Part shown: one piece after another, positions 4,632-50,030 of the stretch
Layout: every line of letters starts with the position of its first letter
Numbering within the stretch: the stretch's first letter is position 1
Source: Nitrosomonas sp. Nm51
Lineage (GTDB): Bacteria; Pseudomonadota; Gammaproteobacteria; Burkholderiales; Nitrosomonadaceae
Direction of reading: 5' to 3'
DNA length: 64,000 nucleotides
Assembly (NCBI RefSeq): GCF_900111165.1
Contig: NZ_FOGH01000001.1
Coordinates: 124,001-188,000, forward strand
Program-made: the position numbers and the translations under genes
The notes under the pieces: model-generated
Told to the model about the DNA's origin: nothing
Seen by the model: only the letters and a program-made list of their open reading frames with translations
The model's database searches: none

Positions 4632-5554
4632 TAACACCGCACCTGCCGGTATTGGAACGGGTAGCGATCGGCCGTTATCTGGCGAAGATCGGCGATCTAC
4701 GCCCGGAAGTGTCTAACGTGGATGCCATGCGGTTTTGTCATGTGCCTGCTGGGCCGTTTTTCATGGGAAAAGGGGCGTATGACAATGAGAATGAAGCGTG
4801 GTTGTTGGGAGAAACACCCTCTGGCGAATACGACCTGAATTATGATTACTGGATCGCGCAGTATCCGGTGACGGTGTCGCAGTTTCGAATGTTTGCTGAC
4901 GACAGCGGTTTTGAGCTGGGCGATACCGATGCCTTGAAGGCCGACAGTAACTTACCGGTTGTTTTGATTTCTCAACAGGAAGCGCTGGCTTTCTGCGACT
5001 GGCTGACGCGTCGTTGGCAGAAAAGTGGTGCGCTTCCCGAAGGATGGCGCGTGACCCTGCCGAACGAACCGGAATGGGAAAAAGCCGCGCGCGGCGGTCT
5101 GGATATGCCTGTCACACCCTTGGTGAACAGTATCGCAACGATTGCTTTTGAAAAACCTGCTGCCGGTTATGCGATGAAATCCAATTCTGAATCCCAGCGG
5201 CGTTATCCATGGGGTAATCTGATTGATGACAGTTATGCCAATTACCAGATGAATGCGGGCGGCATTTCGACACCCGGAATATATTCTGGCAATATCAGTC
5301 CCTATGGTTGTCATGATCTGGCGGGTAATGTCTGGGAGTGGACGCGTTCCGAAAAAGGTGATTATCCGTATCCGGCCGTGAATACGGCAGCCTAACAGCA
5401 ACGGGAAAAGAATGATTTGTCCGTTTGCGTGTTGCGCGGCGGTGCGTTCGACTTCATCCACGACTGCGTGCGTTGTGCTGTGCGTTACGACCTCAGGCCG
5501 GACCTCCGGAACTACTATCTCGGGTTTCGTGTTGTTTTGTCCCCATATCGCTGA
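4592..5554 (+). pseudogene. FGE/sulfatase-modifying-factor-fold sensor domain, C-terminal part of the NACHT-FGE gene, with in-frame stop
   Basis: In this frame, after the frameshift, the sequence runs LPVLERVAIGRYLAKIGDLR, the FGE-fold start (FCHVPAGPFFMGKG), AQYPVTVSQFRMF, LPNEPEWEKAARGG and LAGNVWEWTRS. A TAA at 5393-5395 then interrupts it. The same frame stays open after the TAA, encoding the conserved end of the fold (VLRGGAF, then NYYLGFRVVLSP) until a TGA at 5552. So this is a nonsense mutation inside the domain, on top of the frameshift at its border with the NACHT part. The domain lacks the Cys residues of true formylglycine-generating enzymes in its last segment and is more likely a C-type-lectin-like ligand binder. 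Confidence 0.8.
5431..5540 (+). repeat. Variable-repeat-like C-terminus of the broken NACHT-FGE gene (orphan VR)
   Basis: The last 35 codons align with the DGR variable repeats of this window: R-G-G at the left and L-G-F-R-V at the right. At nearly every place where the DGR template has AAC, this sequence has another NNC codon: GAC TTC ATC, CAC GAC, TAC GAC CTC, GAC CTC, AAC TAC. That is what random replacement of adenines in AAC codons gives. The invariant codons differ from the template at 47311 (for example GTG for GTT, TGT for TCT), so it was not written by that template. No other template was seen in the window. Confidence 0.55.
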
Positions 5555-38092: not shown

Positions 38093-38288
38093 TGATGCGA
38101 ATGCGATTATTAGACAGGTAAATGTTACGTTGACCAGTTAAGGTCATGCCGGCATCCCAATCTTGATGAGAATGTGACATTTGGCACTGTTTGTTTTGTG
38201 CACCGCATTTAAAGTGTATTCCTGTTAGAAGGAAACGACTCTTCGTTTTTCTTTGTTCGTCTATGTCCCTAAATTGGAGGAAATACAA

Positions 38289-39872
38289 ATGAACAAGTAT
38301 GAAATCGCCGCTAATGGGATGCGCGACATATTCCGGAAGCAATCATTCAAGTTTTTGTGGGCGGTTGCGGCTGGAATTTTTCTGATGGCCGGGTTTATGC
38401 AAAATGCCCATAGCGCTGTTACATACCATGCCCTGCCTTTTAAAGCGGAAGATTTAAAAGCTGGAGAACGGGTCTCTACGGGAGATCATGCCAGCGGTAT
38501 ACAAGGCGAAGGAGAAGATTTTGGCGTAAAACGCTATTTGGGAAATAAAAAGTGGAGTCATGTTAAAAACGGCACCGATGGCAAGAAAAATACGGACTAT
38601 CTGATATATGGCAAACCGGTTTATGCGATTGGTGACGGTACGATAGTCGGTTGCTGGCGGAATGCCCCCGAAAATCCTCGTCCTGGAGAGCGGCATGCAA
38701 AAAAAGATAGAATTCCGGGCGGCGGTAACATGCTTTGGGTGGATCATGCCGATGGAACCAGAGTGCTCTATGCGCATATGATTCCAGGCTCAATTTATGA
38801 GAAATTATGTGCCAATAATGCCCAATTGTTTCCCAAGCCAAAATCCGACGCCAATCCAGAGGGTAATTATGTGATGTTGCCCGCCGGTAAAACGGTAAAG
38901 ATTAAAAAAGGACAGTTTTTGGGAAAAGCGGGTAACTCAGGCAGTTCTTCCGGTCCGCATCTTCACCTCCATATGCAAAAAGCTGGAAAAGCCGCAAAAA
39001 TGTTTTTCGAGCGCGGCTTGTATAAAAGCAGTGTCAATGCTGATCTGAACGGATGGAAAAATTTTGCTAAAAAAGAAATTCCGGATGGAAAAATTTTAAT
39101 CTGGCCGCCGCGGACAGTGTTCAATGAGTACACACGCTTTGGTTATAAAGATGACGATTTCCAACGGTTGTTTGACCATCTGGTTGATTCAGGCTATGAA
39201 CTGGAATGGATCGATGGATACAGTGTAAATAATCAGGGCTACCTCAATTTCAGCTGGAAGCCGGCCTCAGGAAAGAAATGGAAAGCCTATTTCGGACAAA
39301 CCGGCGCGCAGTATCAAAAGCGATATGACACCAACAAGAATCTGGCCCCCATTTTTGTTGACAGCTACACAATCGGCGGAAAGGTCCGTTACAACGTGAT
39401 TCTGAAAGCGGTGCCAGGCAATTACATGGCGCGTCATGGATTGACCTATGATCAGCATATGCAGGTTATGAAGGAAGCGAAAAAAAGAAAACTTGAGCCG
39501 GTTAACGTTTCCGTTGCTTCCGTTGGGAATAACCTGAGTTACACAGTACTTTACCGTAACCGCAATTATGGCGCCTGGAACATTAAATCCCGGATCAAAG
39601 AGGGCGATTACCAGAAAGTCTTCAACGATTTCAAGAAAGCCGGTAAAACACCTGTGTATCTCAATGCCTATAAACACAAAGGAACGACGTATTTTTCTGC
39701 AATTTTTGCAAAAAATGGCGGCGGCAGTTTAAAAGCCAGGCATGGTATGAGTGCATCCGTTTTGCAGAAAGAGTGGAAAAATGCCGTGGATAAAGGTTTT
39801 AACACCATGATTCTGACCGCATTTGACGGCGCTGCTTCAAAACACAGATTTGCGGGATTGTGGCGCAAATGA
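38289..39872 (+). CDS. M23 metallopeptidase with C-terminal tandem-repeat domain
   Basis: A 527-aa protein. GGAGG 8 bases before ATG 38289 fixes the start. An N-terminal hydrophobic segment (FLWAVAAGIFLMAGFMQNAHS) is a signal peptide. The M23 (LytM) domain, residues ~70-240, has VLYAHMIPG and GNSGSSSGPHLHLHMQ with the HxH zinc site. From ~270 on are repeats of a ~60-residue unit (RFGYKDDDFQRLFDHLVDSG, RHGLTYDQHMQVMKEAKKRK, RHGMSASVLQKEWKNAVDKG), resembling the bacterial tandem repeat domain of polyglycine-hydrolase-like proteins. The protein is probably exported, acting on peptidoglycan or on a rival's envelope. Confidence 0.85.
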   Translation: MNKYEIAANGMRDIFRKQSFKFLWAVAAGIFLMAGFMQNAHSAVTYHALPFKAEDLKAGERVSTGDHASGIQGEGEDFGVKRYLGNKKWSHVKNGTDGKKNTDYLIYGKPVYAIGDGTIVGCWRNAPENPRPGERHAKKDRIPGGGNMLWVDHADGTRVLYAHMIPGSIYEKLCANNAQLFPKPKSDANPEGNYVMLPAGKTVKIKKGQFLGKAGNSGSSSGPHLHLHMQKAGKAAKMFFERGLYKSSVNADLNGWKNFAKKEIPDGKILIWPPRTVFNEYTRFGYKDDDFQRLFDHLVDSGYELEWIDGYSVNNQGYLNFSWKPASGKKWKAYFGQTGAQYQKRYDTNKNLAPIFVDSYTIGGKVRYNVILKAVPGNYMARHGLTYDQHMQVMKEAKKRKLEPVNVSVASVGNNLSYTVLYRNRNYGAWNIKSRIKEGDYQKVFNDFKKAGKTPVYLNAYKHKGTTYFSAIFAKNGGGSLKARHGMSASVLQKEWKNAVDKGFNTMILTAFDGAASKHRFAGLWRK

Positions 39873-39970: not shown

Positions 39971-40009
39971 CGGCAACGTACCGACATCGCTAGTGCCGGT
40001 ACGTTGCCG
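39971..40009. terminator. Hairpin after the M23 gene
   Basis: CGGCAACGTACCG (39971-39983) and CGGTACGTTGCCG (39997-40009) form a perfect 13-bp stem. No T-run follows, so it may be a factor-assisted terminator or mRNA-protecting hairpin. Confidence 0.5.
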
Positions 40010-40024
40010 TTCCCGGCCATGAGT

Positions 40025-40171
40025 CTAAAACTTTAATCCTTCATCCCAACGTACATGAAATCGTCCGCCAGGTGTTGATAAACGTAATTCCTTTGTACTT
40101 TGATTCATCTCATGTACAGCGAGATTAACTGCTTTTACCAGCTCTCTTTGCTCAAATTCCATTTCACCCAT
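40025..40171 (-). pseudogene. Transposase N-terminal fragment (48 codons)
   Basis: The minus-strand frame starts MGEMEFEQRELVKAVNLAVH and ends LSTPGGRFHVRWDEGLKF. The segment S.PGGR.HVRWDE is the N-terminal block of a group of transposases, after which the protein should run on for several hundred residues but stops here. It lies 300 bp before the conflict operon and may mark an old insertion. Confidence 0.45.
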
Positions 40172-40466
40172 TGGGTGACTCCTGTCTTTAGTCCGAAAAC
40201 CTTGACACTACTACGTTTGAGCTAATTTTTGTAGATCTAACTGAGGAAAATAGGTTAATGTGCTTGCTGAACTGATTCAAGTCGCTGATTGCAAGTTACT
40301 GGAATGCGTTAAACTTAATGGAGTAAATGAACGCGCAGTTTATTCAGAATTCTGCGTTCGCTTTCGAATTGGCTAAAACGAACATTCGTATTTTCGAAAC
40401 ATTTTCCTTGTGCCGACGATTCCTGAGGGTAAAATAATCCCGAAAACGGGGATTAAAAAAACGCGC
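40172..40466. other. Leader region of the TIR-MoxR-DGR operon
   Basis: About 295 bp without a gene. It must hold the promoter of the operon. It contains AT-rich inverted words (AACGCGCAG and CTGCGTT; TTCGTATTTTCGAA). No clear sigma-70 box can be singled out by eye. Confidence 0.35.
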
Positions 40467-41876
40467 ATGGGGCATGAAATCCACATTTTTTTGTCATACC
40501 GACAGAAAAATCCTGACGATATAAAAGCACGCGATATGCTTGCAGCATTATGCACCAAGCATGGATTTAAACTGATCTACGATGAGAATACACTGGGCGA
40601 AGGGGAAAACCTGACCCGGTTTATGAATGATCTCGGATCAGCGCGCTGTGTTTTGATACTTCTGAGTCCCGAATATTTCAAATCGGCCTATACCCTGTAT
40701 GAACTCATCCGCATTTATGAAAATGCAGACCTGGACAGGCGCTTTATTTTTCCATTGCGCGCGACAGCGGATATGAGCGCATATGTAAAAACCGGTGCCA
40801 AAAATGACTGCTGGCTGAAAAGTGAAGCGGTGCGCAACGAATTGTGCAGCAGGCTGAAAGAAAATGATGAAAGCGCAGTCTGGGAATGTGTTCTTGATGC
40901 CTGGGATGCGATCGTTGGCAAAAATCTGGATACGGTAACCCCGTCACTGGAACAAAACGGGCCTGAGGAGGTTCTGGAGGCAAAGCTTGCAACGGTCAGG
41001 GAAACCATCGATAAAGCAATTGCCGATGAACACGAACTGTTATGCAAAAGGATTCAATCAGAACTGACATTTTTTCTGGAAGAACACAATATTCCGCTGA
41101 AGCATTTGAAGCATAGGCTTGGACTTCTACCAGGTACCGATATCGAAGAATTGGCCGAAGTCCTTGTGGAAAAACAAGTCAGCGACGCAATTGGAGCAAT
41201 CACGGGGGTAATCACCAATCAGGAAGCGCAATTAAAACAGGATAACCGCTGGTATGAGGCGTTATCCGATGCGGAGCAGATCTGCGGCTGGCTGTTGATC
41301 GGCAGCGTCGATCCGGTCTGGTGGTTCCATCACCAGTTGAAAATGAAACACATTGGGAAAACGGATATCAGGAACCAGTTAATACTGGAGCATCATGCGT
41401 ATGCTGAAGTGATTATTTCCCGCAGCATTCTGCGTAACGCCAGTTTCAGGCTGGACAAAAACAAAGCCGTGCCCTCGATAGATGCTGAGATCAATTTAAT
41501 GGTGGTATTTGATGCTTCAAAAGATGCGCTAGGTCAACAGTTTTTGTCGGATATCTACAAAGATTTGTGCGATAAAAACAAGGGCCCGAATGACACGGAC
41601 GAAATGATTGTGGATGAGGTTTATGGTCGGGCTTATGCGATATATAAGTCCAAAGGAAGGCCTGTCTGTTATTTGCTGTCGCGTGATATTCTGAACCAGT
41701 TTGAGCAGCAATCCTGGTATGCCTACGCCAGACAGAAACTCACAGGTTATCTGCAGTTCGTTTACTGCGATATCCCTCCGCGCGATGAAGCACTGAAAAC
41801 CATGCCTTCCAGTTTGGAAGAACAGGAGGGTTTGATCGGACAAATCGGATATTTGCTGTCTTTGCGAGGCAGATAA
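40467..41876 (+). CDS. TIR-domain protein, first gene of the DGR conflict operon
   Basis: A 469-aa protein. MGHEIHIFLSYRQKNPDD opens a TIR domain (residues 1-~130): box 1 IFLSYR, FKLIYDENTLGEG, and VLILLSPEYFKSAYTLYELI, where Glu79 sits at the catalytic Glu position of NAD-cleaving TIRs. The remaining 340 residues are unrecognised, with a Trp-rich segment (GWLLIGSVDPVWWFHHQLKM) and an alpha/beta-looking C-terminus. The likely role is effector: NAD+ depletion or cyclic-ADP-ribose signalling on activation. An in-frame GTG at 40410 is a possible earlier start, but the TIR fold begins at ATG 40467. The next gene follows after 20 bp. Confidence 0.8.
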   Translation: MGHEIHIFLSYRQKNPDDIKARDMLAALCTKHGFKLIYDENTLGEGENLTRFMNDLGSARCVLILLSPEYFKSAYTLYELIRIYENADLDRRFIFPLRATADMSAYVKTGAKNDCWLKSEAVRNELCSRLKENDESAVWECVLDAWDAIVGKNLDTVTPSLEQNGPEEVLEAKLATVRETIDKAIADEHELLCKRIQSELTFFLEEHNIPLKHLKHRLGLLPGTDIEELAEVLVEKQVSDAIGAITGVITNQEAQLKQDNRWYEALSDAEQICGWLLIGSVDPVWWFHHQLKMKHIGKTDIRNQLILEHHAYAEVIISRSILRNASFRLDKNKAVPSIDAEINLMVVFDASKDALGQQFLSDIYKDLCDKNKGPNDTDEMIVDEVYGRAYAIYKSKGRPVCYLLSRDILNQFEQQSWYAYARQKLTGYLQFVYCDIPPRDEALKTMPSSLEEQEGLIGQIGYLLSLRGR

Positions 41877-41896
41877 ATAATGACTAAGGACCTGGT

Positions 41897-42922
41897 ATGT
41901 CGACACAACTTCCGCTTGAAAATTTTTTCCCGCAAGACCTGAAAATTTCAAATCCTTCGAGACAATTGCATCACCTGTTTGACGAACGGGATTGCTATGC
42001 GCTCTGGGCGGCGTATTCGGCGGGCAGGCCGTTGCTGGTGCGCGGCAAGCCGGGAACCGGGAAAAGCCAGTTGGCCAGAGCGATTGCCGAACAGCTCGGG
42101 TGGGCGTTTGTCAGCGAAGTGATTCGCGGCAATACCGAATTGAGTGATCTTCACTGGCATTTTGACGCCATCGGCCGTCTGGGGGAGGCACAGGCGCGTG
42201 GTATTGCAGGAGATACACACGGCACGGACAGGCTCGATCCGCTCAACTTTCTGTCGCCGGGCGCTTTCTGGTGGGCGTTTCACTGGAAAAGCGCTGAGCA
42301 GCAATACACGGGCCGCAACAACCACTTGCGTCCCAAACCGGAAAAACCTGATGCGACAAACGAAACAGGAAAAAACTGGCAGCCTGAAACGGGCGGCGTG
42401 GTGCTGTTGCTCGATGAAATCGACAAGGCTGAACCCGATCTGCCCAACGGTCTGCTCGAGACACTCGGGCAGTACCGGTTCACCGTGCCGTACCTCAAAG
42501 ATGACGTTACTGAAGAGTCAGTGAAAAACCCAATTGGTGCCGATCCATCCCGGGTACTGATTGTCATTACCACCAATGAAGAGCGCGAACTGCCGAGCGC
42601 GTTTGTACGCCGCTGCTTTGTCCATACCTTAACCATGGAAGATTCCACGAAAAAACTGGAAAATGGCCTGGAAGCGCGTGTCGACTGGCTGGTCAAACGC
42701 GGTCAACTTCATTTCGGCGCGCGAATTGCTGATGATGTATACAAAGTGGCGGCTGACTTGCTGTGGAAGGACAGAACGTCCGGTGCGCATCTGCGCTACC
42801 CGCCCGGGTTGGCTGAGTATATCGATCTGTTGAATGTGCTGCGGGATTTACCTAAACAGGAACAAAAAGATCGCTTGCAGAAAATTGCATGCTATGCGCT
42901 GCAAAAGGAAGCGGGCGATTAA
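41897..42922 (+). CDS. MoxR-type AAA+ ATPase
   Basis: A 341-aa AAA+ ATPase. Walker A is RGKPGTGKSQLA (residues 49-60), Walker B VVLLLDEIDKAEPDL (~167-181), sensor 1 VLIVITTNEERELP, and an arginine-finger region is at SAFVRRCF. The insert EVIRGNTELSDLHWHFDAIG is typical of MoxR-like proteins paired with vWA proteins. AAGGA precedes the ATG. It ends 3 bp before the next gene, which contains a vWA-like region, so MoxR and vWA partners are adjacent as in the known MoxR-vWA conflict systems. It probably gates activation of the complex by ATP hydrolysis. Confidence 0.93.
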   Translation: MSTQLPLENFFPQDLKISNPSRQLHHLFDERDCYALWAAYSAGRPLLVRGKPGTGKSQLARAIAEQLGWAFVSEVIRGNTELSDLHWHFDAIGRLGEAQARGIAGDTHGTDRLDPLNFLSPGAFWWAFHWKSAEQQYTGRNNHLRPKPEKPDATNETGKNWQPETGGVVLLLDEIDKAEPDLPNGLLETLGQYRFTVPYLKDDVTEESVKNPIGADPSRVLIVITTNEERELPSAFVRRCFVHTLTMEDSTKKLENGLEARVDWLVKRGQLHFGARIADDVYKVAADLLWKDRTSGAHLRYPPGLAEYIDLLNVLRDLPKQEQKDRLQKIACYALQKEAGD

Positions 42923-42925
42923 ATC

Positions 42926-45811
42926 ATGGCATGGGGGCGGCTGGCGCTGATTCAGGCTGCGGGCGAGTCGGAACAGGTTTTGCAGCAGACGGCGGCGCTA
43001 TTCGGTTACGAACAGTTGCCGTTGAACGATGCGTTGCAGAAAGACGGCGATTCAAAGCGGGTTGAAGACTTTGTTGCGGAAAAGAAACCGGAGCATAGCG
43101 TGCCTGCTGCAAAAATACGCAGACCGCCCGCGCGTTTCATTTGCGTGACGCAAACCGAATTTCCGGGCGACGTTGAACAACCGCAACGTCCCGGCTATCT
43201 CGACGATCCTGAAAAACAACTAGCGTTGAACGACGGTAAGCCGGGAACATACGCTTTTGTACCGCCGCGCCCGCTGCTGCCGTTGGCGCGTCTGCTGCCG
43301 TTTTTGCTGAACAGTCTGGGCCAACCGGTGATGAGTAACCGGCTCGATCATCACCGGCTCGCACGCTGGATTACACAGGGCAAGCCGCTGCAACGGCTGC
43401 CGTACAAAAAACGGCAGCGCTGGCCGCAGCGGCTGCATATTATCGTCGATTGCCGCGATGCGCTGGAGCCGTTCTGGTCTGATTTTGCATTGATTGTGAG
43501 CGCGCTGAAAAAACTGCTCGGCGACGAGGCGGTTGAATCGGTGCGGCTGGAACACGACCGGATGGACCGCGAAGACTGTCTGCGCATTACCTGGCTAGCC
43601 GGTGCCGTGGCAAAAGAAAGCGCCGCTCATGAAATTCAGTGGCAGCGCTGGCAATTGCCTTCGCCGGATACATCCATCCTGATACTGGGCGATCTGGGCG
43701 CAAGTGAGCCGGAAGGTAATGCCGCAATCCGCTGGCGGCGTTTTGCGCGCCGTTTGTACTTGCATGCTGCTCCTGTTGTCACGCTGAGTCCGGCACGGCA
43801 GTCTCCGCAAGATCCGGTGGCCTGCCGCATATTCCGGCCGCACGCGCTGAACGATCAGCGCAGCCTGCCGCGTCATCCCGGGCGCAGCGGTTTTGATTGC
43901 GGTGTTCAGGATGGCGATCAATTACAGGACTGCCTGACGTTTCTGTCCGCGTTGCCGGTGGTGGACAGCGGCCTGCTGCGCCGGCTGCGCGATGAATTGC
44001 GCTGGGGCGGCAGCGAACTGGAGAGTCTGCTCTGGAACCATGTGGCTATCGACCGAATCGGGATCGGCATCCGGTTGAAAGAGCCAGTCGCAAAGTTATA
44101 CCGGGAGCGCTACCAGGCGCAGTTTGCCAAAACCCTCCAGGCGGAAAAATTCTGGCGGATCGTCAATGTACATCACCGGAGCGCCTTTACCGGGTTGCGT
44201 CAACTGGAAAAACTGAATCAGTGTCTGTTCGAGGATCAGCAGGATGACGGCATGTTCGAGTATATGCAAAGCTTGTGCGCCACGCTTGCGAAGCCGGACG
44301 CGGACGCCGCGCGGCGCAAAATGCTGCAACAGCAATGCCGCACCGTTCTGGCTTCCGCACCACCCGGTATCTGGCAAGACCCGAATCGGAATTATCGCGA
44401 ACTGGGTTATCAATTGTTTGCATCTGCATATGAAGATGACATCCGGGCTGGAAAATGGCCGCAATATCTGGAACCGGGGTTCGATCCGGCGCAACTGCGC
44501 TGGCTGTTCGATGACGATCAGCATGAACAGCGGGTAACGTGGCTGGTGGCGCAAACGGGCGACCAGGGGCAATGTGTATTGCTGCAACAGGACAAGGCGG
44601 ATGCAGCGGGTCAAACGGTTGTTGCGCCTGTGGCTGCAATACAGGCGCAAGCGCAGATACCGCCGGTACTGACTCTGCCATCCGGTGAGCGTATTCCGGT
44701 TCAGCATGGCACGCACGTGCGCGTGCCGCATGACAAAGCGCTTGCGCTGCACACATTTTGGGAGCGGGTGCATCTGGAAGCCATGCAAAAACCCGCCTGG
44801 GCGCACGCCATTTATTGGGACAGTAAGCTTTACGCCAGCATGACGCTGGCTGCCGCGACACACTATTTTTCCTGGGATGCGTTTCAACGAGAACGTGAAG
44901 GTATCTCACTGTATGGCTGGATCAATCAGGACCCGCAGGATATTGTCCAATTTGATGACTGCGGCCTGTATTTCGATTTGACGATCAGCGGCGTCACCCA
45001 GCGCTTCCGCTGGATAGAGCCCGGCACGTTCCAAATGGGCTCACCGGAAACCGAGCTTGAGCGATTTGATGACGAAGCACAGCATCAGGTAACAGTCAGC
45101 AAGGGTTTCTGGCTTGCGGATACCACCTGCACGCAGGCGCTGTGGCAGGCGGTGATGAGGGAAAATCCGGCGCATTTTAAAGAGAGTGACGATAATCCGG
45201 TGGAGCAGGTGAGCTGGGATGATGTGCAACACTTTATCAAAACGGTGAATAAACAGCACCCGGCTGTTCAATTGCGACTGCCGACCGAAGCGGAATGGGA
45301 ATACGCGTGCCGGGCAGGCAACGAAGCGCCATTTTCGTTTGGTCAAACGATGACTGCTGGTCAGGTGAATTTTGATGGTAATTTTCCCTATGCAGGTGGC
45401 CAAAAGGGTGATTATCGTGGGAAAACCGTTGCAGTCAAATCATTACCAGCCAATCCGTGGGGACTGTACGAAATGCATGGTAATGTCTATGAGTGGTGTC
45501 AGGACTGGTACGGTGATTATCCGGCAGAACCGGTTACCAATCCGCAAGGGCCGGCCGGCGGCGCGGGGCGTGTTATCCGCGGTGGTTCCTGGCTCAACCT
45601 CGGCGGGCGCGTTCGTTCTGCTTCCCGCAACTGGCGCAGCCCTGACGAGCGTAACGACGATCTTGGTTTCCGTCTTGCCCTGGGTCATGTTGAGCCCGGA
45701 CAGGCCGGTCATGATGGACAGCCGCTGAGGGACGATGCGGCAGGCAATCATGACGCAAATCAGCAGGGAATGCTGAAGCGGTTGAAGCAGAAGCTACGAA
45801 AAAAACAATGA
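42926..45811 (+). CDS. vWA-like/FGE-fold DGR target protein 1 (961 aa)
   Basis: Residues ~170-330 look like a degenerate vWA domain (LHIIVDCRDALEPFWSDFAL with the first strand and Asp, later TSILILGDLGASEP). Residues ~340-670 are an unassigned helical middle. Residues ~680-930 are an FGE/SUMF1-type C-type-lectin fold: FRWIEPGTFQMGSPETE, LPTEAEWEYACRAG, GLYEMHGNVYEWCQDWYGDY and IRGGSW. The VR covers residues 879-919. The catalytic Cys pair of true FGEs is absent, so it is a binding, not modifying, domain. It overlaps the HRDC gene by 4 bp (ATGA). The likely role is sensor-adaptor between the MoxR ATPase and a ligand, with a tip diversified by the reverse transcriptase. Confidence 0.88.
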   Translation: MAWGRLALIQAAGESEQVLQQTAALFGYEQLPLNDALQKDGDSKRVEDFVAEKKPEHSVPAAKIRRPPARFICVTQTEFPGDVEQPQRPGYLDDPEKQLALNDGKPGTYAFVPPRPLLPLARLLPFLLNSLGQPVMSNRLDHHRLARWITQGKPLQRLPYKKRQRWPQRLHIIVDCRDALEPFWSDFALIVSALKKLLGDEAVESVRLEHDRMDREDCLRITWLAGAVAKESAAHEIQWQRWQLPSPDTSILILGDLGASEPEGNAAIRWRRFARRLYLHAAPVVTLSPARQSPQDPVACRIFRPHALNDQRSLPRHPGRSGFDCGVQDGDQLQDCLTFLSALPVVDSGLLRRLRDELRWGGSELESLLWNHVAIDRIGIGIRLKEPVAKLYRERYQAQFAKTLQAEKFWRIVNVHHRSAFTGLRQLEKLNQCLFEDQQDDGMFEYMQSLCATLAKPDADAARRKMLQQQCRTVLASAPPGIWQDPNRNYRELGYQLFASAYEDDIRAGKWPQYLEPGFDPAQLRWLFDDDQHEQRVTWLVAQTGDQGQCVLLQQDKADAAGQTVVAPVAAIQAQAQIPPVLTLPSGERIPVQHGTHVRVPHDKALALHTFWERVHLEAMQKPAWAHAIYWDSKLYASMTLAAATHYFSWDAFQREREGISLYGWINQDPQDIVQFDDCGLYFDLTISGVTQRFRWIEPGTFQMGSPETELERFDDEAQHQVTVSKGFWLADTTCTQALWQAVMRENPAHFKESDDNPVEQVSWDDVQHFIKTVNKQHPAVQLRLPTEAEWEYACRAGNEAPFSFGQTMTAGQVNFDGNFPYAGGQKGDYRGKTVAVKSLPANPWGLYEMHGNVYEWCQDWYGDYPAEPVTNPQGPAGGAGRVIRGGSWLNLGGRVRSASRNWRSPDERNDDLGFRLALGHVEPGQAGHDGQPLRDDAAGNHDANQQGMLKRLKQKLRKKQ
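45560..45683 (+). repeat. DGR variable repeat VR1
   Basis: 124 bp aligned without gaps to TR 47311-47434. There are 16 differences, all at template adenines: codons AAC to CTC, CTC, CGC, TCC, CGC and GAC, AGG to GGG and TGG, AAG to GAG, AAT to GAT, CTA to CTG. No non-adenine position differs. It encodes the surface loops of the FGE-fold domain between IRGGSW and LGFRLAL. Confidence 0.96.
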
Positions 45812-46302
45812 AATACCGTTTTTTCACCATACCGGTAAGTGATACAGTCAACGCTGCACATGAACTGAATCAATTCTGTGCGCAGCACAGAATTTGCGAA
45901 GTCGAAAAACACTTTGTGGCGCATGGCGCAGCCAGTTTTTGGTCATTTTGTGTGACATGGACCGATCAGGAAACTGCTCTGACTTCGGGCAGCGTCAGGC
46001 AGCGCAATGATAAAATCGATTACAAGGAATTGCTGGGCGATGATGAGTTCACCCTCTATTCCCGGTTGCGCGTACTGCGCAAAACGATTGCTGAACGCGA
46101 AGGAACGCCGGCGTATAACGTATTCACCAATGCGCAACTTGCCGCCGTTGTGCAGCAGCGCATCACAACAAAATCGGCTTTGCTGGAAATCGAGGGCATA
46201 GGAAAAATGCGTGTAGAAAAGTATGCCGATGAATTGCTGGCATGTTTGAAAAATTTTTACGCCAGCGGTCACGCGGATGAAAAGAATACTGATCACACTT
46301 GA
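45808..46302 (+). CDS. HRDC-domain DGR accessory protein
   Basis: A 164-aa protein. The C-terminal half is an HRDC domain: LYSRLRVLRKTIAEREGTPA, YNVFTNAQLAAVVQQRITTK, LLEIEGIGKMRVEKYADELL, the pattern of the helicase/RNaseD C-terminal nucleic-acid-binding module. The N-terminal half (FFTIPVSDTVNAAHELNQFC) is unassigned. HRDC proteins are known companions of DGR reverse transcriptases, where they probably replace the usual Avd protein in binding template RNA; no Avd gene was seen here. It overlaps the target gene by 4 bp and the reverse transcriptase gene by 26 bp. Confidence 0.85.
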   Translation: MKYRFFTIPVSDTVNAAHELNQFCAQHRICEVEKHFVAHGAASFWSFCVTWTDQETALTSGSVRQRNDKIDYKELLGDDEFTLYSRLRVLRKTIAEREGTPAYNVFTNAQLAAVVQQRITTKSALLEIEGIGKMRVEKYADELLACLKNFYASGHADEKNTDHT

Positions 46303-47284
46303 GGCCATTTCCGAGCGCAAGAATCTTGTGCTTGCCTTGCATAAAGCAGCAAGGGGCAAGCGGCACCGGTCCGATGTGCAGGCTTTTTTTCACAATATGG
46401 ATGCCAATTTGAACCGGTTGGGTCGAGATATTTGCCAATTACGCCTGCCGTATGGGCTGTTCAGGACTTTTGAAATTCATGATCCGAAAAAACGCCTCAT
46501 TCATGCGGCTTGTTTTGAAGACCGCGTTTTTCACCATGCTTTGATGAATCTTGCTGGTGAAGTATTGGAACGGGCAATGATGCCACAAAGCTTTGCCTGC
46601 CGTCGGGGAATGGGTGTCCATAAAGCAGCGAAAAAAGTACAGCAGCTTCTATGCCGCAATACCTGGTATGGCAAAATCGATATCGATGGCTATTTTGCAT
46701 CGATACCGCACGGCCGCCTGCTTGAAGTTTTGTTGCGCCGCTACAAGGGTGAGGCGTGCATTGCGCAATTCAAACGTATCATTGCCAGTTACCAGAGTGG
46801 CCCAGAAACTGGTTTGCCGATTGGATCGCTGACATCGCAGTATTTCGCCAATTATTATCTGGATGGTCTGGATCGGTTGTTGTCTGCATCGACTCTGGTC
46901 AAAGGACATGTACGCTATATGGATGATGTTATCTGGTGGGGTGATGACAGACAGTCGGTTCGCGACGTTTTGCAGTTTTTAGTTGAATGGTTATGGCGGG
47001 AAAGAACCCTAAAGATCAAGCCGAATGCGCAAATTCAACCGAGCAGCCATGGTGTGACCTATTGCGGCTTTCGTGTTTTGCGCGGCGCCATGCGCCTTAG
47101 TCGACGGCGCAAGCGGCGCTATCAGCAACGACGGCTCTATTGGGAACAGCTTTGCCGGCATGGCGAAATCAGCCCGCAACAGCTACAGCGGGCATACGCC
47201 GGCGTGCAGGCTATTACCGCGCAAACTGATTCCCGTGCGTGGCGTATAGAAAACCTGCGCCGTCATCCCGCGTATGCGGTATGA
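46277..47284 (+). CDS. Diversity-generating retroelement reverse transcriptase
   Basis: A 335-aa RT. KIDIDGYFASIPH (residues 133-145) carries the first catalytic Asp. GLPIGSLTSQYFANYYL contains IGSLTSQ (182-188), the I-G-x3-S-Q motif that marks DGR RTs instead of the QG of other RTs. HVRYMDDVIWW has the YMDD box (214-217). A thumb-like basic tail (LSRRRKRRYQQRR) follows. The length is right for DGR RTs (~300-400 aa). It copies TR RNA with adenine errors into cDNA that replaces VR. Its stop is 26 bp before TR. It lacks the maturase and endonuclease domains of intron RTs. Confidence 0.96.
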   Translation: MKRILITLEAISERKNLVLALHKAARGKRHRSDVQAFFHNMDANLNRLGRDICQLRLPYGLFRTFEIHDPKKRLIHAACFEDRVFHHALMNLAGEVLERAMMPQSFACRRGMGVHKAAKKVQQLLCRNTWYGKIDIDGYFASIPHGRLLEVLLRRYKGEACIAQFKRIIASYQSGPETGLPIGSLTSQYFANYYLDGLDRLLSASTLVKGHVRYMDDVIWWGDDRQSVRDVLQFLVEWLWRERTLKIKPNAQIQPSSHGVTYCGFRVLRGAMRLSRRRKRRYQQRRLYWEQLCRHGEISPQQLQRAYAGVQAITAQTDSRAWRIENLRRHPAYAV

Positions 47285-47310
47285 TAATGGCGGGTGACAG
47301 ATCAGCAAGC

Positions 47311-47434
47311 GGCGCGGGGCGTGTTATCCGCGGTGGTTCCTGGAACAACAACGGCAGGAACGTTCGTTCTGCTAACCGCAACAGGAACAGCCCTGACAAG
47401 CGTAACAACAATCTTGGTTTCCGTCTTGCCCTAG
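47311..47434 (+). repeat. DGR template repeat (TR)
   Basis: A 124-bp template. Its core codons are strongly AAC/AAT/AGG-rich: TGG AAC AAC AAC, then AGG AAC, AAC CGC AAC AGG AAC, and AAC AAC AAT before CTTGGTTTCCG. It has 28 adenines; 16 are changed in VR1 and 17 in VR2. It lies between the RT and target 2 on the same strand. A frame that overlaps the end of the RT gene reads through it (GRVIRGGSWNNNGRN), but this is most likely template RNA rather than a gene. Just after TR, base 47435 is C where both VRs have G. Confidence 0.96.
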
Positions 47435-47593
47435 CTCAACATGCGGCCGGATGGTGCGTGAATGACCAGATCGTCATCCCGTTTTTTGCCGTGCGCAAGA
47501 ACAAAAAGCCAGGCCGCCGGTACGCTAGTAATGCGCGTAAGTCCGCTGTGAACGCTTGCCGGGTGGCCGATTTGGTCAAATATACGATTCCTG

Positions 47594-48451
47594 GTGCCAA
47601 TGAAGCAATTGATTCACAATGTTCTTGACATGGAAACAGAGTTTCATGCCGGTTCTCCACCGGCGTTCCCGTATCCATGGGCGCCGGCATGGGGCGAAGA
47701 CCGTTACGGTTTGTGGATGGCGCTGGATTTTAAGAGCGTGCGCACTGTTTTCCGCTGGATACTTCCGGGGATGTTCTGGATGGGTTCGCTTGAAAATGAG
47801 AACGGACGTTTTGACTGGGAAGACCGGCATCGTGTAACAATCAGCCACGGTTTCTGGCTCGGTGAAACGGCGGTAACGCAGGCATTGTGGCGTGCGGTGC
47901 GTGGAGACAATCCGGGTTATTTCAAAGGAGACAATCTGCCGGTGGAACAGGTAAGCTGGGATGATGTTCAGGCATTTATCGAAACACTCAATCGTTTTCA
48001 TCCGGCGCTCAAAACCCGCCTGCCGTGGGAGGCGGAATGGGAATACGCCTGCCGTGCAGGCAGTGAAACCGCGTTTCATTTTGGCGATGAATTGCATCTG
48101 GAAAAAGTCAATTACCGTGGCGTCTGGGATTTTAATGATTCAAATGGATGGGGGAAAGGGGCGCGGCGATCGACTGCCGAAGTTAAAAGCTATCCGTGCA
48201 ACGCGTGGGGTTTGTATGAAATGCATGGCAATGTCTGGGAGTGGTGCGCGGATGCGTGGCAGGAACATTTAGGTAAGCAGCCTCAGGTGGATCCCTGGCG
48301 GCAAGACAAATTGGCCGGCGGCGCGGGGCGTGTTATCCGCGGTGGTTCCTGGTTCAACTTCGGCAGGCTCGTTCGTTCTGCTCACCGCTCCGGGTTCAGC
48401 CCTGACGGGCGTAACGACCTTCTTGGTTTCCGTCTTGCCCTAGGTCATTGA
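47594..48451 (+). CDS. FGE-fold DGR target protein 2 (285 aa)
   Basis: A stand-alone FGE/SUMF1-type C-type-lectin fold protein: VFRWILPGMFWMGSLENEN, VTISHGFWLGETAVTQALW, PVEQVSWDDVQAFIETLN, LPWEAEWEYACRAG, GLYEMHGNVWEWCADAW and IRGGSW. The VR forms the last 41 residues up to LALGH and stop. It is clearly related to the C-terminal domain of target 1 but lacks any vWA or effector part, so it may be a soluble receptor or decoy. The start is GTG 47594 or ATG 47600; there is no strong ribosome site. No signal peptide is seen. Confidence 0.9.
   Translation: MPMKQLIHNVLDMETEFHAGSPPAFPYPWAPAWGEDRYGLWMALDFKSVRTVFRWILPGMFWMGSLENENGRFDWEDRHRVTISHGFWLGETAVTQALWRAVRGDNPGYFKGDNLPVEQVSWDDVQAFIETLNRFHPALKTRLPWEAEWEYACRAGSETAFHFGDELHLEKVNYRGVWDFNDSNGWGKGARRSTAEVKSYPCNAWGLYEMHGNVWEWCADAWQEHLGKQPQVDPWRQDKLAGGAGRVIRGGSWFNFGRLVRSAHRSGFSPDGRNDLLGFRLALGH
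48320..48443 (+). repeat. DGR variable repeat VR2
   Basis: 124 bp aligned without gaps to TR, with 17 differences, all at template adenines: AAC to TTC, TTC, CTC, CAC, TCC, TTC and GAC, AGG to GGG, AAG to GGG, AAT to CTT. The bases after it (GGTCAT) match VR1, not TR. Confidence 0.96.
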
Positions 48452-48676
48452 GCTCAGGCAAAAAGGCGGGCAAAGTCATGCATTCGGCGGATAGCACGGA
48501 CAGCTGCGCCTGCACTGAAGCAGGCGCGGCAGGCCGTGCGGTAGCGGTTTATCCGGCGGTGAAACGAAAACAATGCGTTTGCTTTTGTCCGAGCGATCGC
48601 ATACGCTATGTCTGAACCGGGTCAGTATTAGTATCAACACCCCTAATGAGAAATAAAACGTAATTTATGTTAAACA

Positions 48677-49834
48677 ATGACACTCAACTATTTTGACCAC
48701 AATGCCACTACGCGGGTGGATGATGCAGTGATGGCGGCGATGCTGCCTTATTTTCAGCAGGAATACGGTAATGCGTCCAGCCGCCATGCGCTGGGAACGG
48801 TTGCGCGGCGCGCCATCGACAAGGCGCGCGAACAGGTGGCGGCTGCTGCCGGGGTGCAGCCGGTGCAGGTGATTTTTACCAGCGGCGGTTCCGAAGCCAA
48901 CAATCTGTTTATCCGCGGCGCGGCGGACAGTCTGCAGCCGGGTCATATCGCGATCAGCGCTATCGAGCATCCCTGCGTTCTGAAACCGGCGCAGGCGTTG
49001 TCGCAGCGGTCTGCCGCGCGCTGGACGTTGCAGCGGCTGGCGGTCAATCAGCACGGGCAGGTGGAACCGGCAGCGGCCCGGGATGCGATGGCGCAGCAAA
49101 AGCCTGCGCTGGTTTCCGTGATGCTGGCGAATAACGAAACCGGCGTGATTCAGGATGTGGCCGCGATTGCAGAGACTGCGCGCTCACAGGATGCGTATGT
49201 GCATACCGACGCGGTACAGGGGCTTGGCAAGATACCCGTCGACTTTACAGCGCTCAATGTGCATGCCATGACGCTGTCGTCGCACAAAATATACGGGCCG
49301 AAGGGCGCGGCCGCGCTGATTGTCGACAAACGTTTGCTGTTAAAACCGTTGATTTACGGCGGCGGTCATGAGAACGGGCTGCGCTCCGGTACCGAGAATG
49401 TCCCCGCCATCGTCGGATTTGGCGTTGCCTGCGAACTGGCCCGGGCGCGCATGGCCGAAACGGCGCAGCATGTCGCGCAGCTGCGCGAAACGCTGGAACA
49501 GGGTCTGGTTGAAATGGGCGCGGTGATTTTTGGCGCAGGCGCTGCGCGCATCCCGAACACCACTTATTTTGCGCTGCCGGATGTGGAAGGCGATACGCTG
49601 GTTGTGAAACTGGATAAGGCGGGCTTTGCCGTTGCCAGCGGCGCGGCCTGCTCCAGCGTGAATCCGGGGCAAAGCCATGTGCTGGAAGCAATGCAGGTCG
49701 ACCCGCTGCTTGCGCGCTGCGCGGTGCGCGTCAGTCTCGGGCGCGATAATACGCCGGCGCAAATCGAGGCGTTTCTGAAAGCGACGCAGGAAATTGTCGC
49801 GGAGCTCAGGCGTATGAGCAGCCTGGCTTTTTAG
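48677..49834 (+). CDS. Cysteine desulfurase (NifS/IscS-like)
   Basis: A 385-aa class V PLP aminotransferase: YFDHNATTRVDDAVM at the N-terminus, FTSGGSEANNLFI, the PLP-Lys in LSSHKIYGPKGAA, RSGTENVPAIVGFG, and the sulfur-accepting Cys in SGAACSSVNPGQSHVLEAM. It removes sulfur from cysteine for Fe-S clusters or thiolation. It stands alone, not in an isc or suf operon, so it may be a dedicated sulfur donor. Repeat copy C starts right after its stop. Confidence 0.92.
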   Translation: MTLNYFDHNATTRVDDAVMAAMLPYFQQEYGNASSRHALGTVARRAIDKAREQVAAAAGVQPVQVIFTSGGSEANNLFIRGAADSLQPGHIAISAIEHPCVLKPAQALSQRSAARWTLQRLAVNQHGQVEPAAARDAMAQQKPALVSVMLANNETGVIQDVAAIAETARSQDAYVHTDAVQGLGKIPVDFTALNVHAMTLSSHKIYGPKGAAALIVDKRLLLKPLIYGGGHENGLRSGTENVPAIVGFGVACELARARMAETAQHVAQLRETLEQGLVEMGAVIFGAGAARIPNTTYFALPDVEGDTLVVKLDKAGFAVASGAACSSVNPGQSHVLEAMQVDPLLARCAVRVSLGRDNTPAQIEAFLKATQEIVAELRRMSSLAF

Positions 49835-50030
49835 CCGGATATTATTACATCAGTTGCTGTAATTTAAACGCTGAACTGTTTTGAATTGCGCGTGCCCGCG
49901 ACCGCAGGCGCAGTTATTCTGCGGCACAGGGAGCATGTGCGTTCAATTCAAGACGGGGCAAGTTAACAACCGGCAAGCGAGTCCGTGGGTACAAACCGTA
50001 CTTTCGCTAGAATCCATGAAAACCAACAGG
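49835..50030 (-). repeat. Dispersed stem-loop repeat, copy C (inverted)
   Basis: On the minus strand it reads CCTGTTGGTTTTCATGGATT at the left, CTTGAATTGAACGCACATG, then CCGCAGAATAACTGCG, GCGCAATTCAAAACAG, and the tail TTTAAATTACAGCAACTGATG. This is a full-length member of the family at 11283, 15028 and 60541. Confidence 0.8.

Follow-up and report, generated by a model that had tools for sequence, protein, structure and literature searches.

The described systems closest to the locus considered here are, by layout, the MoxR-associated diversity-generating retroelements (DGRs) of clade 5A. For these, the available text of Dore et al. 2024 (PMC10907252) describes a MoxR-like ATPase directly upstream of the target, a target N-terminal extension without predicted domains, a short and a long target, TIR or trypsin effectors and, in Thiohalocapsa, trans targets, and it names Nitrosomonas and Accumulibacter among the hosts of related DGRs. 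The window (the whole 64,000-nucleotide stretch of Nitrosomonas sp. Nm51 that was analysed) has this layout, with TIR as putative effector and a trans target of its own; unlike the clade 5A DGRs of that text, it has a NACHT protein as a third and remote target. Similarly, the TvpA DGR of Treponema denticola, so far as its available description goes (PMC4891356; structure 2y3c), resembles the window in an HRDC gene overlapping the reverse transcriptase (RT) gene, remote targets and targets of FGE/C-type-lectin fold, whereas several of its targets are predicted lipoproteins and those here stand beside TIR, AAA and NACHT. The DGR of phage BPP-1 is alike in adenine-only transfer from template repeat (TR) to variable repeat (VR), in its RT (33% identity of brt across 77% of the query) and in a guide-like match from the TR/VR boundary, and unlike in having Avd for HRDC, TR upstream of the RT, a tail-protein target and a match further from TR. 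Finally, the VMAP or MoxR-vWA ternary conflict systems (Kaur et al. 2020, PMC7159879) share an AAA ATPase, an effector such as TIR and DGR-linked FGS/FGE, and differ in that neither a vWA nor a VMAP domain was recognised in the window.

Judged from its sequence, the locus is a bona fide DGR of known kind, a reading carried by adenine-only differences, three targets, an intact RT and the operon layout. An earlier note had aligned TR with two VRs by hand, and programmatic alignment returned the same three gapless segments of 124 bp, with 16 (VR1) and 17 (VR2) differences from TR, every one at one of its 28 adenines, none at the 96 other positions, and 15 positions at which the two VRs differ from one another; the DGR-type RT motifs that it named are likewise present, as GLPIGSLTSQ and RYMDD. 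Its count of one template and two variable repeats was right as to the template and those two but incomplete, given that a third, VR3, lies on another contig of the same genome (C77:97974-98097), with 17 differences from TR, all at TR adenines. Pooled over the three VRs, 50 of 50 differences fall on TR adenines and 288 of 288 non-adenine positions (3 x 96) are identical to TR; the chance that 16, 17 and 17 random differences over 124 positions would all land on 28 adenines is about 2e-39. The repeat extends 5' by at least two further bases (GC) common to TR and VRs. At its 3' edge TR reads AG/CTCAA, VR1 GG/GTCAT and VR2 and VR3 AG/GTCAT, the IMH and IMH* at the repeat ends being non-identical (RG/GTC in the VRs, AG/CTC in TR), and not until one base past the 3' end given earlier does a difference (C to G) fall outside the adenines. 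The VR1 change A123G, silent (CTA/CTG) and two bases from the boundary, is perhaps no product of mutagenesis. Imperfect inverted repeats occur near VR1 and VR2, and two relatives have clear hairpins, L048 at VR2 and L057; an Rfam scan of window positions 40000-50000 at E 0.5 gave no match.

Table 1. Features of the DGR operon and of the proposed guide (window coordinates)
Feature	Position	Strand	Evidence or remark
TIR-domain protein, 488 aa, putative effector	40410..41876	+	Pfam TIR_2 E 3.1e-12
AAA ATPase, 341 aa, MoxR-like by context	41897..42922	+	Pfam AAA_5 E 5.1e-10
Target 1, 961 aa, FGE/C-type-lectin-fold C-terminal domain	42926..45811	+	FGE-sulfatase E 2.8e-47, residues 696-918
VR1	45560..45683	+	16 differences vs TR, all at A
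VR1 boundary-side site GGTCAT	45683..45688	+	complementary to proposed guide, 6 bp
HRDC-domain accessory gene, 164 aa	45808..46302	+	Pfam HRDC E 1.1e-18
DGR reverse transcriptase, 335 aa	46277..47284	+	RVT_1 E 1.5e-15; YMDD, IGSLTSQ intact
TR (template repeat)	47311..47434	+	alignment
TR-side boundary CTCAAC (IMH*)	47435..47440	+	VRs read GTCAT here
Proposed guide in TR RNA, AAUGACC	47461..47467	+	complementary to GGTCATT of VR2, VR3
Adenine directly 3' of guide, predicted cDNA-priming nucleotide	47468	+	BPP-1 analogy
Target 2, up to 285 aa, FGE/C-type-lectin-fold	47594..48451	+	Pfam FGE-sulfatase E 1.6e-44
VR2	48320..48443	+	17 differences vs TR, all at A
VR2 boundary-side site GGTCATT	48443..48449	+	complementary to proposed guide, 7 bp

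The VRs lie at the 3' ends of C-type-lectin/FGE target genes (Table 1), and the best solved structure for the target-family profile is 2y3c, T. denticola variable protein 1. Where they align, VR included, the target proteins are 48-59% identical; in the stretches directly 5' of the VRs, 38 and 60 of 150 bases are identical without gaps. The start codon of target 2 is uncertain, ATG 47630 being possible. The long N-terminal part of target 1 has no Pfam domain and no solved-structure sequence match at E 1; the vWA domain expected there is unsupported, by Pfam or PDB sequence alike. The TIR protein aligns with the bacterial TIR structure 7uxr, including the glutamate of its YEL motif, which we take to be the catalytic residue; its C-terminal part, where a VMAP C-terminal domain was sought, has no Pfam match at 0.01. 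The HRDC gene overlaps both the stop of target 1 and the start of the RT. Among the six operon proteins scanned there was no match for Avd and none above the curated cut-off of NCBIfam. PADLOC matched the RT to a generic RT model (1.7e-34) as well as to numerous DRT models, and the HRDC protein to DpdF (3.8e-15), while the TIR and AAA proteins matched more weakly and targets 1 and 2 not at all; a named PADLOC defence system was rejected, the matches being read as shared domains. The order FGE-HRDC-RT-TR-FGE recurs in another Nitrosomonas (L048/L056), in Accumulibacter (L057) and in a planctomycete (L058), with 36/37, 32/33 and 34/34 differences at TR adenines in pairs pre-selected for such differences, and AAA relatives occupy the same place in L057 (49% identity) and L058 (38%). 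A scan of viral contigs with the window RT alone found no relative.

Within this operon the RT would copy the RNA of TR and its 3' flank, misincorporating opposite adenines, with the HRDC protein probably its cofactor in place of Avd, and the cDNA would then replace the 3' ends of three FGE/C-type-lectin genes, at VR1 and VR2 in the operon and at VR3 in trans. How the VRs are chosen and TR is spared may be indicated by the RNA just 3' of TR, where a short stretch is complementary to the boundary as it reads in VR, and to a lesser degree as it reads in TR; the same VR-biased complementarity is found in many, not all, of the other DGRs examined, BPP-1 included. The proposed guide, 27-33 nt after TR, would pair with the VR strand GGTCAT(T) over 6-7 bp, the adenine that follows it would prime cDNA synthesis, and the resulting RNA-cDNA chimera would be complementary to VR on both sides of the boundary; TR, having C in place of G, would pair less well with its own guide and so be spared. 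In BPP-1 the match, of 9 bp, ends at spacer nucleotide 56 and lies at +63..+71 after the last shared base; A56 is presumably the BPP-1 spacer priming adenine, and on this the prediction of A47468 is based. Such a mechanism may be new.

Across 34 VR sites of 17 HRDC-type loci, boundary-anchored complementarity averages 5.71 bp, against 2.79 at TR's own site, 3.31 with shuffled flanks (0 of 2000 reach 5.71) and 4.26 across loci; it is greater at VR than at TR in 30 sites and tied in 4. In a second set, of viral contigs, a match lies in the zone +50..+64 at 22 of 50 VR sites and 4 of 50 TR sites, against a shuffled mean of 2.0 (max 6, n=300) and a permuted mean of 9.6 (max 16, n=300). That zone was chosen on a preceding set of 89 loci and was fixed beforehand for the second set only; a further zone, +45..+80, was added ahead of the second set because the BPP-1 match ends at +71. 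Flanking pairs covary in the HRDC sites (36/54 vs 22.0 shuffled, 0/10000) and in the GCTTT subfamily (34/70 vs 19.9, P 0.0001), and in the BPP-like subfamily covariation is absent beyond the core (8/25 vs 6.95, P 0.37). These statistics include related loci that are not independent, and in per-locus shuffles the match, because it is short, is often not significant. It reaches only 4 bp at L057 and L114 and is shifted by 1-2 bases at L049 and L092; TR is favoured at 5 of 21 non-HRDC sites; of eight named phage or plasmid records with a pair, BPP-1 alone has a long match, and L126, L128 and L131 match TR better than VR; and 28 of the 50 VR sites of the second set have no match in the fixed zone.

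Since the pair script discards any pair in which most differences are not at A, its A-fraction partly reflects selection. In the 89-locus set, BPP-1 included, all but 19 loci gave a clear TR/VR pair, and of 74 pairs 57 remained after reduction; in the second set, 6 of 80 loci had been covered before and were passed over, 21 of 74 had no pair and 56 pairs became 50. The guide test dropped one truncated or wrong-strand pair each of L051 and L054 and left out the HRDC-bearing L090, L117 and L121 (no pair), as well as L113 (no pair) and L110 (truncated pair); L059 and L094, with weak HRDC matches (54 and 58 bits), were counted as non-HRDC, and five duplicates (1 HRDC, 4 other) were removed from the HRDC/non-HRDC site comparison. 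A fold common to the TR 3' flanks was rejected, the ten sequences folded being mostly no better than shuffles (z-scores -3.0 for L116, -3.4 for L113, -1.9 for L091, and -1.1 to +0.9 for the other seven, the window among them). Hairpins are poorly aligned in the alignment of TR 3' flanks.

Whether in many DGR RNAs the region 3' of TR indeed holds a short, covarying guide for the VR side of the boundary, with the adjacent nucleotide, often A, as primer, is in our judgement an evenly balanced question. Instead, the complementarity might only fold the TR RNA and place the priming adenine, the target being chosen otherwise, by a cruciform or by cDNA homology. Some of this pairing is open to the TR RNA itself, and the available accounts of BPP-1 report priming within IMH* by an adenine internal to the spacer (PMC12875486) and a role for a hairpin/cruciform 3' of VR (PMC3240598). 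Counting against a guide, too, are the favouring of target-primed synthesis with no orientation effect seen, in the available text of the latter, and the identity of IMH and IMH* in a crAss-like phage, in that of PMC7290462. RNA-internal priming alone, however, would be expected to favour TR, and the VR-favoured match in the HRDC sites, where it is never worse than at TR, and in the second viral set counts against it; we consider the folding explanation rather unlikely.

As for what is diversified, the variable domains would by analogy be ligand sensors, that of target 1 coupled to the MoxR-like ATPase and the TIR effector and that of target 3, a 1208-aa NACHT-FGE protein ending in VR3, coupled to NACHT signalling; we infer that the three targets may together form a diversified defence repertoire. 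The several lipoproteins predicted among the T. denticola targets (in the available text of PMC4891356) would favour surface or adhesion proteins over intracellular defence sensors, but a surface role is improbable here, given that target 1 shares a closely packed operon with the TIR and AAA genes, that target 3 is fused to NACHT and that in L058 a Trypsin_2 protein occupies the effector place.

The genome has one RT of this family and four strong repeat copies; a first C58 paralogue was rejected as a further VR of the window TR (28/96 non-A mismatches). Homing in trans is the preferred origin of VR3. A VR cassette spread by ordinary duplication or by gene conversion would fit GTCATTGAGCTCA, which both VR2 and VR3 carry past the repeat, such that a single copying of the landing site is probable, and the same base at 6 of 11 co-changed positions (about 4 expected were bases equally likely). 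VR3, however, is identical to TR at all 96 non-A positions and keeps TR's A at six positions changed in VR2 (34, 35, 41, 73, 77 and 97), and is therefore not simply today's VR2 copied; such an origin for the repeat seems to us distinctly improbable.

To speak of direct evidence for mutagenic retrohoming, as the earlier note does, is fair as regards past homing, ongoing homing being more than a sequence can attest, and its suggestion of recent transfer gains support from the 288 TR-equal non-A positions in VRs whose target proteins have diverged; its term 'active-looking' is an inference. That the element was recently silenced, its VRs recording past homing only, would fit a genome seen in one snapshot but is very doubtful, since the reading frames of the RT, the HRDC protein and the three targets are uninterrupted, the RT motifs intact and those 288 positions unchanged, such that any loss would be recent.

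Overall, a Nitrosomonas chromosomal DGR with three targets, a guide and defence-type sensors is a reading that we hold to be probable. The locus is a clean case, from an ammonia oxidiser, in which one template serves three sensor-like genes that differ in architecture. Should the guide rule prove true, the 3' end of DGR homing would become predictable from sequence, and the priming nucleotide and the legitimate and remote targets would become annotatable. Likewise, a guide would account for the difference between IMH and IMH* and for the one-way flow of information from TR to VR, and would allow one TR to reach several genes in trans, a target then requiring both the repeat and a guide match. 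The question of how TR spares itself would be reduced to an experiment on a few bases.

The diversity-generating retroelement (DGR) combines adenine-only replacement, three targets, intact genes, a pattern at the 3' boundary of its repeats, and complementarity between RNA 3' of the template repeat (TR) and the variable repeats (VRs). The earlier note had placed three 124-bp segments, and their positions are exact; likewise, its counts of 16 (VR1) and 17 (VR2) differences from TR, every one at a TR adenine, are correct, and the two VRs are, as it claimed, mutually distinct (15 positions). Its description of one template with two VRs stands for both VRs in the window but not for their number, as a third lies on contig C77. 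When the 3.24-Mb genome (131 draft contigs) was searched with the invariant TR head, allowing up to 3 mismatches, four places were returned, the three known ones and this copy, which has 17 differences, all at TR adenines, and 0/96 at other positions. Using the full-length TR as a DNA query gave these four places again and added a weak fifth on contig C58. Over the three VRs all 50 differences are at a TR A (random-placement chance about 2e-39), with 31, 18 and 1 at codon positions 1, 2 and 3, and the products are G (21), T (18) and C (11). Fifteen codons differ from TR in one or more of the VRs; AAC accounts for 9, and one is silent. Together they allow a protein repertoire of about 2.7e14, and a stop codon is reachable from only one of them.

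VR3 is best explained by homing in trans, because its body matches TR at all non-A positions and keeps TR's A at six positions changed in VR2. As GTCATTGAGCTCA outside the repeat is likewise common to VR2 and VR3, the landing site itself probably arose by a single copying event before it was used. IS200-like (Y1) transposase-type genes, possible carriers of target cassettes, adjoin the remote target and lie near the C58 FGE genes, the latter gene scoring below the Pfam cut-off. Several Nitrosomonas targets carry the palindrome TGAGCTCA or a near copy 3' of the boundary, in part past the stop codon.

The reverse transcriptase (RT) is 33% identical to brt of the Bordetella phage BPP-1 and is the single member of its family found in this genome; a general RT model matches four places, which besides the DGR RT are on C73 (two pieces) and C84. 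The best solved-structure match of the RT profile is 8ub7, which we take to be a DGR enzyme. All three targets, two in the window and one remote, end C-terminally in an FGE-sulfatase (C-type-lectin-fold) domain, and the best structure match of their family is T. denticola variable protein 1 (2y3c, E 1.2e-41). An AAA ATPase and a TIR protein are encoded upstream, and from the TIR gene to the RT gene, neighbors are separated by at most 20 bp or overlap. In T. denticola, as excerpted in PMC4891356, HRDC accessory genes overlap the RT, as here.

Coordinates of features at the DGR and at related loci (window positions unless a locus, L, or contig, C, is named)
Feature	Position	Remark
TR	47311-47434	
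VR1	45560-45683	
VR2	48320-48443	
Target 1	42926-45811	
Target 2	47594-48451	
Target 3	C77	1208 aa, VR3 at its end; NACHT (E 4.8e-11) and FGE domains
HRDC-domain gene	45808-46302	directly upstream of RT gene, 26-bp overlap; Pfam
RT	46277-47284	
Proposed guide	47461-47467	
Peptidase_M23 protein	38253-39872	upstream of TIR gene; five BTRD1 stretches
FGE-like stretch	4739-5536	interrupted by one TAA; about 40 kb from DGR
Palindrome or near copy	48449-48456	
Palindrome or near copy	L018 10104-10111	
Palindrome or near copy	L048	VR 3' flanks
Palindrome or near copy	L017 near 6944	
Y1 transposase-type gene	L018 10415-10945	
Y1 transposase-type gene	L017 5485-6051	
C58 FGE paralogue	L017 6105-6944	
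Prosthecochloris plasmid DGR	L126 4191-6014	HRDC gene and avd both annotated beside RT

Among 61 genomes (this one and 60 relatives), 18, this one included, have an RT match at E 1e-3, mostly distant, the closest at 61% identity. The order FGE-HRDC-RT-TR-FGE recurs in Nitrosomonas genome G022, in Candidatus Accumulibacter iunctus and in a planctomycete, where a Trypsin_2 protein replaces the TIR gene. RT profile matches were found in 13/28 genomes of the Accumulibacter genus (E 1e-60; HRDC not in all) and in 23/369 class-wide (E 1e-30, this genome included). TR/VR pairs in which 80% or more of the differences are at A were detected by script in 36/42 loci. Nitrosomonas genomes also hold a second, HRDC-less DGR lineage (L051, L052, L054), likewise beside AAA and FGE genes, and G022 carries both. 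The C58 FGE paralogue has 13/96 non-A mismatches to the G022 TR and 28/96 to the window TR; by this comparison it may be an orphaned target whose DGR, a second one, has been lost.

At the boundary, TR AG/CTC accompanies VR RG/GTC in 13 of the 20 loci that combine an HRDC hit with a TR/VR pair, the exceptions being L049, L059, L091, L092, L094, L100 and the truncated L110. GACC is often present in the RNA 3' of TR, in a context matching the VR side. The proposed guide in the window, AAUGACC (+27 to +33), is complementary to GGTCATT in both VR2 and VR3 and, for 6 bp, to GGTCAT in VR1; TR's own site has C where the VRs have G. Covariation is seen in some exceptions: L091 has VR GTTCAAG and guide CUUGAAC, VR1 of L058 has a 9-bp guide match (GGTCAGGGT), and L092 has a 9-bp match displaced by two bases. 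Over 34 VR sites in 17 HRDC-type loci, complementarity anchored at the last base common to TR and VR has a mean of 5.71 bp, and TR's own site has 2.79; controls gave 4.26 bp across loci and 3.31 with shuffled flanks (0/2000 reaching 5.71). Kinship among loci inflates some controls. The mean is maximal at the last shared base and lower on both sides, and the RNA base after the match is A in 25/27 sites with at least 5 bp. Flanking pairs covary in the HRDC set (18 sites; 36/54 against 22.0 shuffled, 0/10000) and in the GCTTT subfamily (35 sites; 34/70 against 19.9, P 0.0001), but no such covariation was found in the BPP-like subfamily (8/25 against 6.95, P 0.37).

Other loci of the same searches average 4.33 bp, against 2.71 and 3.01; at 21 of their sites VR matches better than TR in 14, equally in 2 and worse in 5. 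The non-HRDC loci L118, L122 and L124 have 9-10 bp guide matches beginning exactly at the boundary. In a first independent set (viral contigs and nine named phage or plasmid stretches), matches of at least 5 bp ending at +50 to +64, a zone picked after seeing the data, occur for VR in 24/57 and for TR in 10/57 (shuffled mean 2.9, maximum 8 of 500; permuted 5.1, maximum 12 of 500). With that zone fixed beforehand, a second set of viral contigs gave 22/50 for VR and 4/50 for TR (shuffled mean 2.0, maximum 6; permuted 9.6, maximum 16 of 300), and +45 to +80 gave 35/50 and 6/50 (4.4, maximum 11; 16.4, maximum 23). Eight named records yielded a pair, and of these only BPP-1 shows a long match, 9 bp of TGACCACCT with AGGTGGTCA at spacer nucleotides 48-56 from the annotated TR end; VR has 5 bp against 3-4 for TR in L127, L129 and L133, the two are equal in L132, and TR is matched better in L126, L128 and L131. 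We take A56 of the BPP-1 spacer to be the mapped priming adenine.

Mechanistically, the guide would pair with the VR strand that also complements the cDNA, and guide plus cDNA on the target would resemble an RNA-primed DNA fragment. In excerpt, the literature points both ways. A 2026 BPP-1 study, which has an internal spacer adenine priming within IMH* (the TR-side boundary element), reports better editing with that VR strand as lagging-strand template, and it credits Naorem et al. with proposing an Okazaki-like intermediate (PMC12875486); both favor the fragment picture. Against it, Guo et al. 2011 found no orientation effect and favored target-primed synthesis (PMC3240598), and identical IMH (VR side) and IMH* are reported in a crAss-like phage (PMC7290462). 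That a covarying guide 3' of TR pairs with the VR side in many DGRs is evenly balanced between true and false; the crAss-like phage and the named records keep it from being rated higher. Spacer-VR complementarity was not found in excerpts of PMC12875486, PMC3240598, PMC7290462, PMC4372165, PMC8867640 and PMC4891356; it may already be published, Naorem 2017 and Handa 2018 lying outside this comparison.

The locus belongs to an already described type of DGR, because its layout, putative MoxR/FGS link and HRDC-RT overlap all have counterparts in excerpts of PMC10907252, PMC7159879 and PMC4891356. As excerpted, Dore et al. 2024 describe the same layout, propose antigen sensors, and count Accumulibacter and Nitrosomonas as hosts of multiple related DGRs (PMC10907252); Kaur et al. 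2020 predict conflict systems linked to MoxR in which FGS domains are associated with DGRs (PMC7159879). For the locus itself, we infer a putative role in defence.
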